Positions 16,351 to 27,049 of a stretch of DNA of 32,779 nt are shown in pieces (the first letter of the stretch is position 1; the number at the start of each line of letters is the position of its first letter). Source of the stretch: Thermoplasmata archaeon (GTDB lineage Archaea; Thermoplasmatota; Thermoplasmata; Lutacidiplasmatales; UBA184). The notes below the pieces were generated by a model. That model searched no databases, had not been told where the DNA came from, and saw only the letters and a list, made by a program, of their open reading frames with translations. The DNA is taken from contig JAKIVR010000017.1 of the NCBI GenBank assembly GCA_022750455.1, positions 1 through 32,779 on the forward strand, given 5' to 3'. Position numbers and translations under genes: made by a program.

Positions 16351-16723
16351 GGGCGACCGGCCCCTCCCGGGAGGCGGGGTCGATCGCGGCCTGGAGCCAG
16401 TTCACGTACGGCTCGTGTACGCGCGGCACGTGGATCTCGTGGATGTCGGGCACGTCGTACGGGTGGTGCTTCGCCAGGTACGCGAACAGCGCCCCCAGCC
16501 GCTTGGGCGTGGTCTTCATCCACAACCCCTGCTCGGACGCCGTCTCGACCCGGCCCCGCCACCAGTAGGTGGAACGGATCGGGGAGATCTGGGCGCACGC
16601 CGCGAGCTGGCGCCGGACGACGGCGTCCGCCATCGCGACGGCGGTCGGTTCATCCGGCAGGGAGCAGAAGACGAGGCGCACGCGCCGGTCCGCCCCGGTT
16701 GGGTCGAGCGGGGGCGCCGTCAC
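16274..16723 (-). CDS. cutA: CutA1-like divalent cation tolerance protein
   Basis: Small trimeric PII-like-fold protein found in all domains; linked to copper tolerance in bacteria, with its molecular role unsettled. The conserved core is LVFCSLPDEPTAVAMADAVV, RQLAACAQISPIRSTYWWRG, and GLWMKTTPKRLGALFAYLAK, followed by HPYDVPDIHEIHV and YVNWL. The protein is 149 residues, longer than the usual 105-115. The extra part is a basic Arg/Pro tail after residue about 118 that reads through the end of the convergent pgk gene, so it may be incidental. The GTG start at 16721-16723 overlaps the stop of the polymerase subunit gene (GTGA), so cutA is the downstream partner in that operon. Confidence 0.87.
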   Translation of the reverse strand: MTAPPLDPTGADRRVRLVFCSLPDEPTAVAMADAVVRRQLAACAQISPIRSTYWWRGRVETASEQGLWMKTTPKRLGALFAYLAKHHPYDVPDIHEIHVPRVHEPYVNWLQAAIDPASREGPVAPRRRGGPRAPGASLPPRTRARRRRR

Positions 16724-18228
16724 GACAGCACGATCTCCTTCCCCCGACCGCTGAGGAAGTCGAGCGTGGCGACGCTCAGGTCGGTCAGGTCGACGATCGC
16801 GGAGCGGGCCGGGACGGGCGTAATGTTCCGCATCCTCTGGTAGCCGGTCTCTCCCTGCCACGTCGAGGCGTTCACCAGCAACGTCCCCCGGTACTGGTCG
16901 ACGCCGTAGGTGTGGGAGTGACCGGTGACGAGTATGTCGGGGACCGGATCGATGACCAGCCCGTCCCGGGGGAGGGGCGCGAGCGGCGTGCGCGACCCGT
17001 AGATCGGCGCGAGGTGGCGCATCGCCAACATCGTCTTCATTACCTCGGTCGGCCGCGAATAGCTCGCCCCGGGGAGCGCGGGGATCAGGTCATCGAAGCT
17101 CCGGCCATGGTACGCCTCGATCACCACGCCCCCCATGGCGAACGTCGAGGGGTTGCCGAGGACCCGGACGTTGGGGGGGAGCGACGTCGTGAGCTCGGTC
17201 GGGATCGCCGGCTGCGGTTCGGCGGGGCAGACCGCGTCGTGGTTCCCGGGCACGACCACGATCTCGAGCTCGGCGGGGAGCTCGCGGAGCCGTCGACCGA
17301 GCTCGGCGTACTGTTCCACGATGTCCCCGATCGCCAGGTCCCTCTCCTGATGGGGGTAGATGCCGATCCCGTCGACGAGGTCCCCGGCGATGACGACCTG
17401 CCGGATCTCGGAGGCGACGTCGGGGGCGACGTCCTGCCCCCGGAGGAACGCAAGGAGCCCGGCCCAGCTCTCGTCGAGGAACGACCGGCTGCCGATGTGA
17501 AGGTCGGAGAGGAGGAGCACCCGGTGCGGTCGGCCGGCGCGGTGGCGGGGCCGGTCCGTCGGCACATCCGGGCGCACGACCGACTTGGCGACGACCGACC
17601 GGTGGAGATCGGTCGGCACCCCCACGTGGATGCCGACGACCTCGTCGGGGATCCACGTCACCCGGGACGCCGGGATCTCGTCGGGTACGATGACCTCGGC
17701 CGCCCCGGTCTCGTCCTCGACGCTGAGGCGGAGCCCCCGGCGGCGCTGCAGCGGTCGCACCTCCCGCACCATGACGACGATCGAGGCGGCCCCGGGCCGC
17801 TGACGGAGGTCCCGGATCGGCGTCACGTTCGGCAGGTCCGGGCGGCCCCGGAGGAGCCGGCCCAGCGAGCGGTATCGCGCGGTGAACAGGCTTCCGTACG
17901 CCTCGAGCGGAGCCCGTCCGCCGGGGCCGGGGGCGAATCCCTCCGAGATCAGCGAGAACAACGGACCCTCGGAGAGGACCGATCCGGTCCGGGTCGGCTC
18001 GCCGGGCCCCGGCGAGGAGCGACCGGTCGGGGCGCTCGCCGACCCCGCGGGCGGGTGGAGCACCGTCTCGACGATGGAGAGGGTGACGAACATCTCCTCG
18101 GGGGGCATCCGCTCGACGACCATCCGGCAGGCGAGGAGCGGTTCGGGCGTCGAGCTGAGACGTTCCAGGGCGTCGGGCGAGACGAGACGGCGGTTCTCCG
18201 CAAAGTATCGGATGAGGTGCTCGTGCAT
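16720..18228 (-). CDS. polB: DNA polymerase D (PolII) small subunit DP1, 3'-5' exonuclease
   Basis: Small subunit of the archaeal family D replicative polymerase, carrying the Mre11-like proofreading nuclease. The 502-residue protein has an N-terminal helical region, a low-complexity Pro/Gly/Ser linker near 60-82, an OB-fold at about 135-225 (ASIVVMVREV, LSVEDETGAAEVIVPDEI), and the calcineurin-type phosphoesterase. Its metal motifs are SDLHIGS at 241-247, AGDLVDG at 281-287, PGNHDAV at 327-333, AYHGRSFDD near 372-380 and TGHSHTYG at 435-442. All expected metal ligands are present, so the nuclease should be active. The large subunit DP2 is not in the window. The ATG at 18226-18228 begins the typical LIRYFAENRRLVSPDAL. 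Confidence 0.95.
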   Translation of the reverse strand: MHEHLIRYFAENRRLVSPDALERLSSTPEPLLACRMVVERMPPEEMFVTLSIVETVLHPPAGSASAPTGRSSPGPGEPTRTGSVLSEGPLFSLISEGFAPGPGGRAPLEAYGSLFTARYRSLGRLLRGRPDLPNVTPIRDLRQRPGAASIVVMVREVRPLQRRRGLRLSVEDETGAAEVIVPDEIPASRVTWIPDEVVGIHVGVPTDLHRSVVAKSVVRPDVPTDRPRHRAGRPHRVLLLSDLHIGSRSFLDESWAGLLAFLRGQDVAPDVASEIRQVVIAGDLVDGIGIYPHQERDLAIGDIVEQYAELGRRLRELPAELEIVVVPGNHDAVCPAEPQPAIPTELTTSLPPNVRVLGNPSTFAMGGVVIEAYHGRSFDDLIPALPGASYSRPTEVMKTMLAMRHLAPIYGSRTPLAPLPRDGLVIDPVPDILVTGHSHTYGVDQYRGTLLVNASTWQGETGYQRMRNITPVPARSAIVDLTDLSVATLDFLSGRGKEIVLS

Positions 18229-18344: not shown

Positions 18345-19022
18345 CTAGGAGCGGTACGATTCCTTGGCGTACGACGCGCCTTTCGGGTACTTCTCGCGGA
18401 GGTGCATGATGAGCGACTCCGGCGAGTTGTTCACGTGGGCGGAGTACCAGGCGACGACGACGTCCTTCAACGCCCGGTGCAGGTCGCGGACGTTGATGGA
18501 GTTCTCCGGGGCCTCGTAGACCACGGCCTGGCTCATCATCCGCATCCAGCCGGTGTACCGGTGGTACGATTCGCCATCGCACCACTCGAAAATGCCGCGG
18601 AAGTGGGGATGTCCCTCGGCGGTCTGGTAGTACCAGAAGCGGAGCGTGAAGCCGACCCAGCCCTGGCTGCGGTCCCGCAGCTCGATCGTCTTGACCGCGC
18701 TGAAGTCGAACGTCTCCTTGAACGTCCACTGGTGCGGATAGTCGACGAACGTCGCGAACAGCGTCTGGGACGGTTCCACGGTCAGGTGGAGGGCGGAGTC
18801 CTCGAACTGGTTGTGGATCTCCCAGACGTCCTGGAGGATCCGGCGGTTCAGGCCGGCGCGGCGCGAAAGGTCCTCGCCGGGGCGCTCGGTGACGGACTTC
18901 TGCGTCCGGGTGAGCTCGGCCTTGAGGGAGGCCACGAAATCGTCCTCCGGGAGGGCTTCGAAGGAGGGCTCAGGCTCGTTCGAGGGCGGAGGTGCCGGGC
19001 GGACTGTACGGCGTCGGGCCAT
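18345..19022 (-). CDS. Conserved-looking hypothetical protein, 225 residues
   Basis: I do not recognise this family. The N-terminal ~35 residues are basic and proline-rich (MARRRTVRPAPPPSNEPEPS). A helical stretch follows with LKAELTRTQKSV and LNRRILQDVWEIHNQFEDSA. From about 90 on, a compact domain rich in Trp, Tyr and Phe appears to hold beta strands (LRFWYYQTAEGHPHFRGIF, EWCDGESYHRYTGWMRMMSQ). A helical C-terminus follows (LHRALKDVVVAWYSAH). No signal peptide or membrane segment is seen, so it should be cytosolic. The ATG at 19022 has a TATA-like box about 35 bases upstream, giving a very short leader. It lies between the polymerase D subunit gene (116 bases downstream) and divergent dnaG, which hints at a role near replication without proving it. 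Confidence 0.8.
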   Translation of the reverse strand: MARRRTVRPAPPPSNEPEPSFEALPEDDFVASLKAELTRTQKSVTERPGEDLSRRAGLNRRILQDVWEIHNQFEDSALHLTVEPSQTLFATFVDYPHQWTFKETFDFSAVKTIELRDRSQGWVGFTLRFWYYQTAEGHPHFRGIFEWCDGESYHRYTGWMRMMSQAVVYEAPENSINVRDLHRALKDVVVAWYSAHVNNSPESLIMHLREKYPKGASYAKESYRS

Positions 19023-19053
19023 GGAACAACCTAGGCGCGCGTAGCGGTGGGCG

Positions 19054-19061
19054 ATAATAAG
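19054..19061 (-). promoter_or_regulatory. TATA-like box for the 225-residue hypothetical gene
   Basis: On the minus strand this reads CTTATTAT, an AT-rich island 32-39 bases upstream of the ATG at 19022. The spacing predicts a leader of only a few bases. Confidence 0.55.
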
Positions 19062-19168
19062 ACGTTCGTCGGTTCTGTCTCGACCGGAGCGCGCAGGACC
19101 GTCGAGGCGGCTCCGTGGCTCCTTACCTCGACCCGCCGTCAGAGAGGACATTTCAGGTTCGCTCTCGC

Positions 19169-19176
19169 TTAAATAG
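19169..19176 (+). promoter_or_regulatory. TATA box of the dnaG leader transcript
   Basis: TTAAATAG lies within the near-palindrome CGCT-TAAAT-AGCG. Transcription should start near 19198-19202, about 200 bases before dnaG. No other TATA-like sequence lies closer to dnaG, so this is the probable promoter of dnaG and the Lon-like gene. Confidence 0.65.
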
Positions 19177-19197
19177 CGGAACGGCATAGATTGGTCG

Positions 19198-19404: not shown

Positions 19405-20736
19405 ATGAGCAACGACCCAACCGCCGCCAAATACCTGATCCGGGCCCGAATCACCGCCGACGGTGTGATCGACAAACCCGACGTCGTCGGAGCCGTCTTC
19501 GGGCAGACCGAAGGACTTCTCGGAGACGAACTCGACCTGAGAGACCTCCAGAAATCCGGCCGTGTCGGCCGCATCGAAGTGGAGATCGACTCGAAGAAGG
19601 GGAAGACCGAAGGCGAGGTGCAGATCCCCTCCTCGCTCGACCAGGTCGAGACCGCGATCCTCGCCTCCGGACTCGAGACCGTCGACCGGATCGGCCCCTG
19701 CCGGGCCAAGATCGAGGTCACCGGTGTCGAGGATATCCGTGTCGCGAAACGCCAGAAGATCGTCGAGCGCGCGAAGGCGATCCTGAGCCACATCCAGGAG
19801 GACTCGAAGGGCGTCGGCATCGACATCGCCGAGGCCGTCCGCAAGTCCGTCCAGGTCGAGGAGATCACCACCTACGGGCCCGAGCACCTGCCCGCGGGAC
19901 CGAACGTCGACGGCGCGGACGCGCTGATCGTCGTCGAGGGACGCTCCGACGTGCTGAACCTGCTGCGCTGCGGGATCAAGAACTCCATCGCGGTCGAAGG
20001 GACGAGCGTCCCGCAGACGGTGAAGGACCTCTCGCGGGGCAAGACCGTCACCGTCTTCACCGACGGGGACCGGGCGGGCGAACTGATCCTGCGGGAGATG
20101 CTCCAGACGATGGACATCGACTTCGTGGCCCGGGCGCCGCGGGGATCCGAGGTGGAGGAGCTCACCCAGAAGCAGCTCCTCAAGTGCCTGAGGAACAAGA
20201 TCCCGATCAACCAGTTCCTCGAGATGAGCGGGCTCGAGTCGACGGGCGCGAGCCGCCCGCCGGTCCCCGAGGACCGCTCCGAGGGGGGAGGCGGAGGGGG
20301 CGGCGGTCCGCCGCCCCGCCGCGATGACCGGGAGCGCGGGCGCGACCGGGACCAGCACGATCGGGGCCCGCCCCCGGCCGGCGTGCCGCTGCCGCCCCCG
20401 CCGCCCCCCGCGGCGGCCGCGACGTTGCCGCCCCGCATCGCCGGCTATTTCACCATGCTCGGGGGGATCGAGAACACGGCGCGCTCCCTCTTCCTGGGCG
20501 CGGACGACGCGGTGCTCGTCGACATCCCCGTGAAGGAGATGATCGACCGGCTCGCGACGATCGATGGCTCGGTCAAGACGCTCGTCTTCGACGGCGTGGT
20601 GAGCCAGCGGCTCCTCGACGTCGCGCAGGAGAAGGGGCTCGAGACGGTCGTCGGCAACCGCCTCGGAGCGGTCGGAAAGATCCCGGAGACGGTGCGCGTC
20701 CTCACCCGCGCGGATGTGGGCCCGTCGCCCCGCTAG
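19405..20736 (+). CDS. dnaG: Archaeal DnaG-type primase / exosome-associated protein
   Basis: Archaeal DnaG of 443 residues. In archaea it is a TOPRIM-domain primase homologue and a stable partner of the RNA exosome, binding poly(A) RNA. The N-terminal domain starts with KYLIRARITADGVIDKPDVV and ELDLRDLQKSGRVGRIEVE. The TOPRIM core has IVVEGRSDVLNLLRCG at 175-190 and VFTDGDRAGE at 217-226, with the acidic metal-binding residues intact. Residues about 290-340 form a long Gly run, then Arg/Asp and Pro-rich sequence, far more extended than usual. The C-terminal domain follows from about 342 (RIAGYFTMLGGIENTARSLF). An AAAGGAG 11 bases before the ATG fixes the start. The Lon-like gene follows after 34 bases. 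Confidence 0.95.
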   Translation: MSNDPTAAKYLIRARITADGVIDKPDVVGAVFGQTEGLLGDELDLRDLQKSGRVGRIEVEIDSKKGKTEGEVQIPSSLDQVETAILASGLETVDRIGPCRAKIEVTGVEDIRVAKRQKIVERAKAILSHIQEDSKGVGIDIAEAVRKSVQVEEITTYGPEHLPAGPNVDGADALIVVEGRSDVLNLLRCGIKNSIAVEGTSVPQTVKDLSRGKTVTVFTDGDRAGELILREMLQTMDIDFVARAPRGSEVEELTQKQLLKCLRNKIPINQFLEMSGLESTGASRPPVPEDRSEGGGGGGGGPPPRRDDRERGRDRDQHDRGPPPAGVPLPPPPPPAAAATLPPRIAGYFTMLGGIENTARSLFLGADDAVLVDIPVKEMIDRLATIDGSVKTLVFDGVVSQRLLDVAQEKGLETVVGNRLGAVGKIPETVRVLTRADVGPSPR

Positions 20737-20770: not shown

Positions 20771-22330
20771 ATGACGATCGGCGAGACGCCCTCGGCCGCC
20801 GGGAGGCGCCCTCCCGGACCCGCGTCCCTCCGCGAGGTCACGACCTCCGACGAGATCCCGATCCCTTCCGACCCGCTCGACCGGGTCATCGGACAGGAGA
20901 AGGCGGTGGAGATCGCCCGGATCGCGGCGTACCAGCGCCGCCACCTGCTCCTCGTCGGCCCCCCCGGGATTGGCAAGTCGATGACGGCCCAGGCGCTCGC
21001 GCTGCACCTGGAGCGACCCCACTCCGAGATCCGGGTCGTCCACAACCCCGAGAATCCCGAGCGGCCCTCCATCGAGGTCCTCGCCCGGGAAGAGGTGCTC
21101 CACGAGCGGGAGGCCGCGAGGACCACCGAAGGGGTGGTCATCGATGCGAAGGAGGCGCCCGCCTCCGTCGCCGAGCGGCTCGGGTACCGTTGCGCGCGGT
21201 GTTCCTTCTACTCGACTCCGGCCGACCGGTACTGCCCGAGCTGTGGCAACACCAAGCAGCTCCTCCCCGGAGCCCCGAACAGTGGGAACCCGTTCCGGGA
21301 CCTCGTCGGCGGGATCCTCGAGCTGACGGTCAGCCCCGGCGGCAATCCACAGGAGTCGGTCCGTACGACCCGTCTGAAGGACGGGGTGGAAGAGGTGGTC
21401 GCGTACGAACGAGCGGGCGACCGGATCCGTGTGCTCGACCAGCGCTCCTTGGAGCGCCGACGTCAGCAGCAGCGGGAGAGCCCCCACAAGGTCCTCGTGA
21501 AGATCGACCGAAACACGTTCGTGATGGCGACGGGGGCGAGCGAGACGGAGTTGTTGGGCGACGTGCGGCACGATCCGTACGGCGGCCATCCTCAACTCGG
21601 CACCCTTCCGTTCGAACGCGTGATCCCCGGGGCGATCCACGAGGCGCACGAGGGCGTCCTCTTTCTCGACGAGCTCCCCCATCTTGGCTCGTTGCAACGG
21701 TTCATCCTCACGGCGATGCAGGAGAAGCGGTTCCCGATCTCCGGGCGAAATCCCCAATCCGGCGGGGCGAGCGTGCGGGTCGACAGTGTACCGTGCGACT
21801 TCCTCCTCGTCGCCGCCTGCAACATCCAGGACATCCAGCAGGTCCTCTCGCCCCTCCGATCCAGGATCGCAGGGGGCGGGTACGAAGTGCTTCTCGACAC
21901 GGCGATGCCGGACACGGAGCGGAACCAGCTGCGATTCGCCCAGTTCGTCGCGCAGGAGATCGCGACCGACGGTCGGCTCCGGCCCGCGACCCGCGAAGCG
22001 ATCGTCGAACTGCTGATCGAGTCCCGTCGCCGTGCCGAGCGGATCGATGGCCGTCGGAATGCGCTCACGCTCCGTCTGCGTGAAATGGGAGGACTCATCC
22101 GAACCGCCGGCGATCTCGCCACGATCTCGGGGAGCCAGCACCTCGAGGCGGCCCACGTCAAGCAGGCCCTCGACCGGGCGCGCTCCATCGAGGAACAGAT
22201 CCGGGACGCCTACGGCTCGTTCCAGGGGGGCATGCAGAAGGACGTCACCGAGGCCCAACGCCAGAGCATGGGGTACTACACCTGGAATGAGAACCGAGAC
22301 CCGTCGCGCTATCCGGGCGGCTACGGCTGA
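20771..22330 (+). CDS. LonB-like AAA+ ATPase lacking the protease domain, with a zinc-ribbon insertion
   Basis: The 519-residue protein resembles the ATPase half of archaeal LonB. DRVIGQEKAVEIARIAA is at 37-53, Walker A GPPGIGKS at 63-70, Walker B VLFLDELPHL at 296-305, and an arginine-containing LSPLRSRI segment follows. The C-terminal small AAA domain includes TLRLREMGGLIRTAGDLATI. Two departures stand out. Where LonB has transmembrane helices between Walker A and B, this protein has a CxxC...CxxC zinc ribbon (Cys141, 144, 155, 158) and no hydrophobic segment. The S16 protease domain with its Ser-Lys dyad is missing; the protein ends in a Tyr/Gly/Asn-rich tail. It may be a remodelling ATPase rather than a protease. 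The start ATG follows GGAG, in an apparent operon with dnaG. Confidence 0.85.
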   Translation: MTIGETPSAAGRRPPGPASLREVTTSDEIPIPSDPLDRVIGQEKAVEIARIAAYQRRHLLLVGPPGIGKSMTAQALALHLERPHSEIRVVHNPENPERPSIEVLAREEVLHEREAARTTEGVVIDAKEAPASVAERLGYRCARCSFYSTPADRYCPSCGNTKQLLPGAPNSGNPFRDLVGGILELTVSPGGNPQESVRTTRLKDGVEEVVAYERAGDRIRVLDQRSLERRRQQQRESPHKVLVKIDRNTFVMATGASETELLGDVRHDPYGGHPQLGTLPFERVIPGAIHEAHEGVLFLDELPHLGSLQRFILTAMQEKRFPISGRNPQSGGASVRVDSVPCDFLLVAACNIQDIQQVLSPLRSRIAGGGYEVLLDTAMPDTERNQLRFAQFVAQEIATDGRLRPATREAIVELLIESRRRAERIDGRRNALTLRLREMGGLIRTAGDLATISGSQHLEAAHVKQALDRARSIEEQIRDAYGSFQGGMQKDVTEAQRQSMGYYTWNENRDPSRYPGGYG

Positions 22331-22381: not shown

Positions 22382-22454
22382 GGGCGCGTGGTCTAGTGGT
22401 CATGACGTCACCCTGACATGGTGAAGATCGCCAGTTCGAATCTGGCCGCGCCCA
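22382..22454 (+). tRNA. tRNA-Val (anticodon GAC)
   Basis: A full cloverleaf can be drawn. The acceptor stem is GGGCGCG with CGCGCCC, the D arm covers 22391-22406, and the anticodon stem is TCACC/GGTGA with loop CTGACAT, giving anticodon GAC. The variable loop is AGATC, the T arm is GCCAG-TTCGAAT-CTGGC, and the discriminator base is A. All stems are complete. The 3' CCA is not encoded (ACCT follows). No intron is present. Confidence 0.96.
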
Positions 22455-22572
22455 CCTCGCGGGAGAAGGAGCGGGGAGATCGATCGGTTCGAACGTCCGA
22501 GCTCGCCCGGCCGGTGTCGAGCCTCGGGCCCGCGGGGACGGAGCCGGGGAGGAATGACTCGCCGATGCCAGC

Positions 22573-26770: not shown

Positions 26771-26965
26771 TTAACGGGCTCGCGTCGTCGCGCTCTTCTT
26801 CACCATGAAGCTGACGCGCGATCGTCGAGGCGCCTTCTTGCCTTCCAAGAAGTTGACCCGAGTGGTGTGGCCCCTCGATTTCGTCGCCGTGAACTTCACA
26901 CGGACCCGGCGGGGCGCCTTCTTGCCTTCCAGGAATGATACCTTGGTCCTTCGCTTAGCTACCAT
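26771..26965 (-). CDS. Small basic protein with two KVSF-FLEGKKAPRR repeats
   Basis: A 64-residue, very basic protein made of two near-identical units. Each has the pattern V-[SN]-FLEGKKAPRR-x-RV-[KS]-F; the first is RRTKVSFLEGKKAPRR and the second TTRVNFLEGKKAPRR, each followed by a short strand and a basic link. The alternation of Val/Phe with Lys/Arg suggests a beta-strand, nucleic-acid-binding mini-protein. It recalls short KVSF-repeat proteins I associate with other archaea, from memory only. The start is set at the ATG of MVAKRRTKV because a TATA-like box lies 28 bases upstream; 17 in-frame upstream codons begin before that box. The stop lies in a palindrome (GAGCC...GGCTC), possibly a terminator. 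Confidence 0.75.
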   Translation of the reverse strand: MVAKRRTKVSFLEGKKAPRRVRVKFTATKSRGHTTRVNFLEGKKAPRRSRVSFMVKKSATTRAR

Positions 26966-26988
26966 GAGGGTTGGGAGCGGGATCGGTA

Positions 26989-26996
26989 GGTTAAAC
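26989..26996 (-). promoter_or_regulatory. TATA box of the small basic protein gene
   Basis: On the minus strand GTTTAACC is centred about 28 bases before the ATG at 26965. No Shine-Dalgarno is present, so the mRNA is probably leaderless. Confidence 0.6.
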
Positions 26997-27049
26997 CCCC
27001 CCTTAATTCGAATCAAGCCGACGACGGGTCCGAGGGTCGACCCGAGGCC

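Follow-up and report, generated by a model that had tools for sequence, protein, structure and literature searches.

A protease-less relative of archaeal LonB, conserved downstream of dnaG in Thermoplasmata, with a C-terminal tail that may dock on the 20S proteasome

Lon is the textbook case of a motor and a protease in one chain. The archaeal 20S proteasome works with several AAA ATPases (PAN, Cdc48, and AMA), and archaeal proteasome ATPases dock on it via a C-terminal HbYX motif (PMC4192671), an ending carried by 0.93% of archaeal proteins (PMC11475706). Canonical HbYX has a hydrophobic residue before the aromatic one, and its pocket occupancy drives gate opening of the archaeal 20S (PMC12352868). 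The window analyzed here (the whole stretch of DNA, 32,779 nucleotides) encodes an intact Lon-type AAA+ ATPase of 519 amino acids (20771..22330, + strand, ATG start), whose closest solved relative is the LonB of Thermococcus onnurineus (3k1j; E=5e-82 with the single sequence, 4e-111 in a profile search), matched over the AAA+ region only in both cases. An AlphaFold model of the protein (mean pLDDT 83.6, pTM 0.75) likewise gave 3k1j as its top match in the PDB (Foldseek, E=2e-35). The NCBIfam model for LonB (TIGR00764) scored 345 bits, below its curated cut-off of 516.6, and its alignment to the protein reaches only model position 402 of 608, leaving out the protease part that would follow. The PAN model (TIGR01242) was not among the best 25 families for this protein. 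Downstream, the gene is bordered by a tRNA-Val (GAC; 22382..22456, +, predicted by ARAGORN), and no protease fragment was found in the 51 bases between the stop codon and this tRNA.

The motor itself carries a full set of motifs, nearly all of whose residues are invariant in an alignment of 49 diverse family members. These comprise Walker A (GPPGIGKS, residues 63-70; 20957..20980, +), with G63, P64, G66, G68, K69, and S70 invariant, and Walker B (LFLDEL, residues 297-302; 21659..21676, +), with D300 and E301 invariant. The pore-loop aromatic motif HDPY (residues 267-270; 21569..21580, +) is invariant in the family alignment, its LonB counterpart being HDPF, and sensor 1 (N351), the arginine fingers R363 and R365 (LRSR), and sensor 2 (LRLR) are also present. 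As read from these motifs, the ATPase site and pore loop of the family are intact, in agreement with the first-pass annotation of this DNA, which had described intact Walker motifs and an intact Lon-type small AAA domain.

An alignment with 20 LonB paralogues from the same phylum, together with the structural model, places a soluble insertion (residues ~121-243; 21131..21499, +) at the site that the transmembrane insertion occupies in LonB. This insertion contains a zinc ribbon, a flexible loop modeled at low confidence (residues 166-192), three beta strands, and one helix. The ribbon cysteines (C141-x2-C144-x10-C155-x2-C158; 21191..21244, +) sit where LonB has its membrane helices, as had been proposed from the sequence at first pass. 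All four are invariant among the 49 aligned members, and close and distant relatives alike retain the four-cysteine motif (140/140 distinct members, one of which has CxxxxC as its second knuckle). Zinc binding is predicted, Pfam zinc-ribbon matches on the insertion being weak and below cut-off.

This architecture extends well beyond one genome. Tallying result rows at E below 1e-150 across 295 genomes of the phylum, we found the family in 103 of the 108 genomes of the same class and in 12 genomes outside it. Among 61 near relatives, the best match was nearly always full length and free of internal stop codons, and the S16 protease motif (GDSA) occurred in 0 of 140 distinct members, close or distant. 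The best 80 of 564 relatives in a contig scan were labeled as Thermoplasmata, Methanomassiliicoccales, or DHVE2, or bore broad labels such as "Euryarchaeota archaeon"; named carriers among these 80 include Methanomethylophilaceae, many Thermoplasmata MAGs, and Candidatus Lutacidiplasma silvani. A separate LonB is encoded in nearly every family-carrying genome and is universal, too, in lineages that do not have the protease-less family. In the genome studied here, it lies on another contig (C37), the end of which cuts off its N-terminus; its membrane segment and GDSA/TAK dyad motifs are present, and it shares 39% identity with the protease-less ATPase over 399 aligned positions. A truncated LonB, a pseudogene, or an assembly error, for which nothing but the missing domain speaks, is effectively ruled out by this class-wide architecture, by 140 distinct members that all have four cysteines and individual tails, and by the LonB found elsewhere in the same genome. 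The view taken at first pass of a distinct rather than damaged protein, with no S16 domain and no protease remnant before the tRNA, thus holds.

A single long branch divides the family from LonB in a tree built on the core that both share (FastTree support 0.75, no outgroup). Because all LonB sequences in this tree came from within the phylum, the direction of change is not polarized; the earlier wording that the protein had "lost" its protease and "swapped" its anchor accordingly stands for the absence of both and the presence of the ribbon, and not for the order in which these arose. Judging by matches to the 519-residue protein, no NCBIfam or Pfam model fits the architecture, and literature text searches found no published description of it. 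Two Lon-like entries are named in a Cuniculiplasma proteome (CSP5_1287 and CSP5_1716; PMC7285479), either of which may or may not belong to this family. On the sequences compared, the protease-less ATPase forms a stable and separate family, with a known fold and with an architecture and a proposed partner that are new.

The feature that points to this partner is a conserved C-terminal tail that had been missed in the first-pass annotation. The tail beyond the last helix (residues 501-519; 22271..22327, +) is disordered from about residue 501 (pLDDT <50 for most of its length) and ends in GGYG. The penultimate residue is aromatic in 138 of 140 distinct members (116 Tyr and 22 Phe), and the remaining two have Ile, ending in YIG. 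Endings include GYG, GYQ, GYE, SYQ, SYE, MFH, MFN, and AYH. A second conserved aromatic stretch in the tail reads Y-x-W-N. The spacing from the preceding aromatic box, where this could be recognized, varies from 7 to 16 residues; hence, it is the C-terminal end itself that is kept. Since the aromatic residue is preceded by Gly in 92 of 140 members (Met, Ala, Ile, or Val in 31; Ser, Pro, or Thr in 15), most of these tails are only partial HbYX motifs. Rpt1 likewise has a partial motif without the hydrophobic residue (PMC10349882).

Within this phylum, the PAN and Cdc48 tails offer a direct comparison. PAN mostly ends in -MFA here, with -MFV, -MFS, and -AFA also seen (25 relatives), and the PAN of the genome studied ends in TMFA; penultimate Phe therefore appears to be an accepted form in this phylum. 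As a general observation on these PAN proteins (L164-L193, L213), Phe occupies the position where the textbook HbYX has Tyr. In three genomes (G207, G129, and G279), the PAN ending (-MFA) and the family ending (-MFH) are nearly identical. The Cdc48 of the genome studied ends in TIFR, and that of lineage f19 (12 genomes without PAN), which we infer from the missing PAN to be the Thermoplasma group, ends in GLYQ, GLYL, or GLYN. As controls, 18 of 20 LonB tails that were read are not of the penultimate-aromatic kind, and the commonest penultimate residues of the neighboring dnaG product are L, A, G, and P. Two full-length membrane LonB of another lineage (f15; L214 and L216) have the ending ...QGYE, as seen in the protease-less family. 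Hence, a GYE-type ending occurs outside proteasome partners as well.

Directly upstream of the ATPase gene, on the same strand, lies dnaG, encoding archaeal DnaG with its Toprim domain (19405..20736, +; NF003108, E=1.8e-153). The position behind dnaG, remarked on at first pass, proved to hold across the class: dnaG is the next gene upstream, in the same orientation, in 132 of the 137 distinct members whose flanking sequence sufficed, at a median distance of about 25 bases (dnaG stop codon to first base of the profile match), and clustering of the open reading frames (ORFs) of family loci confirms the adjacency. No other neighbor occurs in more than 16 of 82 loci, with the exception of a single antisense ORF cluster lying close to where the ATPase gene ends, on the opposite strand. 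Archaeal DnaG is an exosome subunit (PMC7667871), binds the exosome via Csl4 according to the title of Hou et al. 2013 as cited there, and has been linked to replication by gene context (PMC2643942). The genomic context thus suggests a link of the ATPase to replication or the exosome.

Other ORFs in the window were also noted. A 280-residue protein without a Pfam or NCBIfam match is encoded divergently from dnaG (18345-19187, -), at a position matching that of opposite-strand ORF clusters which about 13 related loci have upstream of dnaG. Two genes away from dnaG, and oriented the other way, is the gene for the small subunit of DNA polymerase D (16720-18228, -; NF003118, 425 of 445 bits), and a small basic ORF of 81 residues (26771-27016, -) carries repeats of a FLEGKKAPRR-like unit.

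We consider that the family may represent a soluble unfoldase of the Lon type which uses its (partial) HbYX tail to dock on the 20S proteasome, a sequence-based reading to which we give a probability of roughly 43%. Such a protein would assemble into a hexameric AAA+ ring, bind its substrate by the ribbon and beta domain, and thread it through the ring pore, while its C-terminal tails would dock into the pockets between 20S alpha subunits. The covalent protease ring of Lon continues from the same C-terminal side as the family tail, so that the tail would stand in for the fused protease by recruiting a separate one. Tails with Gly before the aromatic residue might tether the 20S without opening its gate on their own. 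The combination of an intact motor with the absence of the S16 motif from all members fits an unfoldase in need of an external protease, and docking is favored by the penultimate-aromatic tails common to the family, PAN, and Cdc48 of the phylum, by the persistence of the penultimate aromatic behind a linker of variable length, and by the interchange of Tyr and Phe at this position. In addition, each of the 13 genomes examined encoded 20S subunits, and the pocket residues G19, L21, V24, and K66 were seen in the alpha subunits inspected (positions from PMC10349882). The Gly before the aromatic in most members is the chief weakness of this reading, and the gene next to the ATPase, dnaG and not a proteasome gene, also speaks against docking.

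A general replacement of PAN by this family was considered and rejected, as a search of 295 genomes of the phylum placed PAN in the genome studied (contig C46) and in most of the class. Some lineages have neither protein, and only f19 keeps the protease-less family while being without PAN; as PAN is present in most family-carrying genomes, there is no pattern of replacement outside f19. As a separate observation, the genome studied holds a third match to the proteasome fold (PF00227; C83:2771-3280, L273) besides its two 20S subunits.

The strong pairing with dnaG is also what would be expected if the ATPase remodeled a DnaG/exosome or replication complex and its tail bound the exosome, DnaG, or a replication partner in place of the 20S. 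Contacts with nucleic acid or protein are common among zinc ribbons, and the ties of DnaG to both the exosome and replication add to the appeal of such a role, which we regard as possible on tentative grounds. It accounts less readily for the resemblance of the family tail to the PAN and Cdc48 tails of the same genomes; moreover, no nucleic-acid-binding domain was identified in the ATPase, and the pairing with dnaG may mean co-expression only. Docking on the 20S and remodeling would be compatible if the motor stripped exosome- or DnaG-bound complexes and handed the proteins to the 20S. Co-expression with dnaG would tie unfolding to DnaG/exosome or replication clients. The composite scenario, in which a Lon motor has been re-coupled by its tail to the 20S, its anchor has become a soluble substrate-binding ribbon, and RNA decay by the exosome is physically tied, through the position next to dnaG, to proteasomal protein decay across the class, appears rather doubtful as a whole.

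An intact ATPase and pore loop without a protease domain could also belong to a self-contained chaperone or disaggregase with no protease partner, whose tail, disordered in the model, would serve to assemble or regulate the ring itself, and the PAN and Cdc48 genes of the genome studied already serve the 20S. We consider this unlikely given that the penultimate aromatic is kept exactly at the extreme C-terminus despite indels in the linker, which suggests a pocket that reads the C-terminus. Less probable by far is a regulator of LonB that would co-assemble with the full-length protease, either within mixed rings or as a second ring stacked on it. The common AAA+ fold, the sequence identity to the LonB of the same genome, and the presence of LonB in nearly every carrier are in its favor; nonetheless, LonB is held at the membrane by an insertion that the protease-less family does not have, is equally universal in lineages without the family, and is separated from it by a long branch.

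The family may constitute an unrecognized motor that feeds the archaeal proteasome. A Lon motor conserved across a class without its protease would show how such machines split and re-pair. If docking on the 20S is true, a Lon-type member would join PAN, Cdc48, and AMA among the archaeal proteasome ATPases, in a group some of whose lineages are without PAN, and the linkage to dnaG makes the old proposal of a connection between the archaeal exosome and proteasome directly testable.

Among known systems, archaeal LonB (TIGR00764; 3k1j, 4zpx) is the best match to the protease-less ATPase in both sequence and fold, and the two share the N-terminal half, the AAA+ core, and the pore-loop and small-domain motifs. 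In contrast to LonB, the family has neither the S16 protease domain nor the membrane helices, in place of which it carries the zinc ribbon and beta domain; it also has its own C-terminal extension and forms a separate clade. With PAN (TIGR01242), it shares the AAA+ ring, a dependence on a separate protease that is putative in the family, and a tail with a penultimate aromatic residue (-MFX in both proteins in some genomes), but it belongs to the Lon-type AAA+ lineage, does not match the PAN model, and usually has Gly before the aromatic. Unlike the protease-less family, Cdc48 carries a pair of AAA domains and AMA falls in a different branch; neither is of the Lon type or ribbon-bearing. Both are likewise non-PAN AAA ATPases with C-terminal docking tails and 20S partners (PMC4192671), docking by the family being putative, and the Cdc48 tails TIFR and LYQ occur in the same genomes as the family. 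LonC (MtaLonC), a weaker fold match, is another Lon relative in which the pairing of ATPase and protease is broken, and it represents the opposite case, in which the protease was kept and ATPase activity was lost (PMC3391209).
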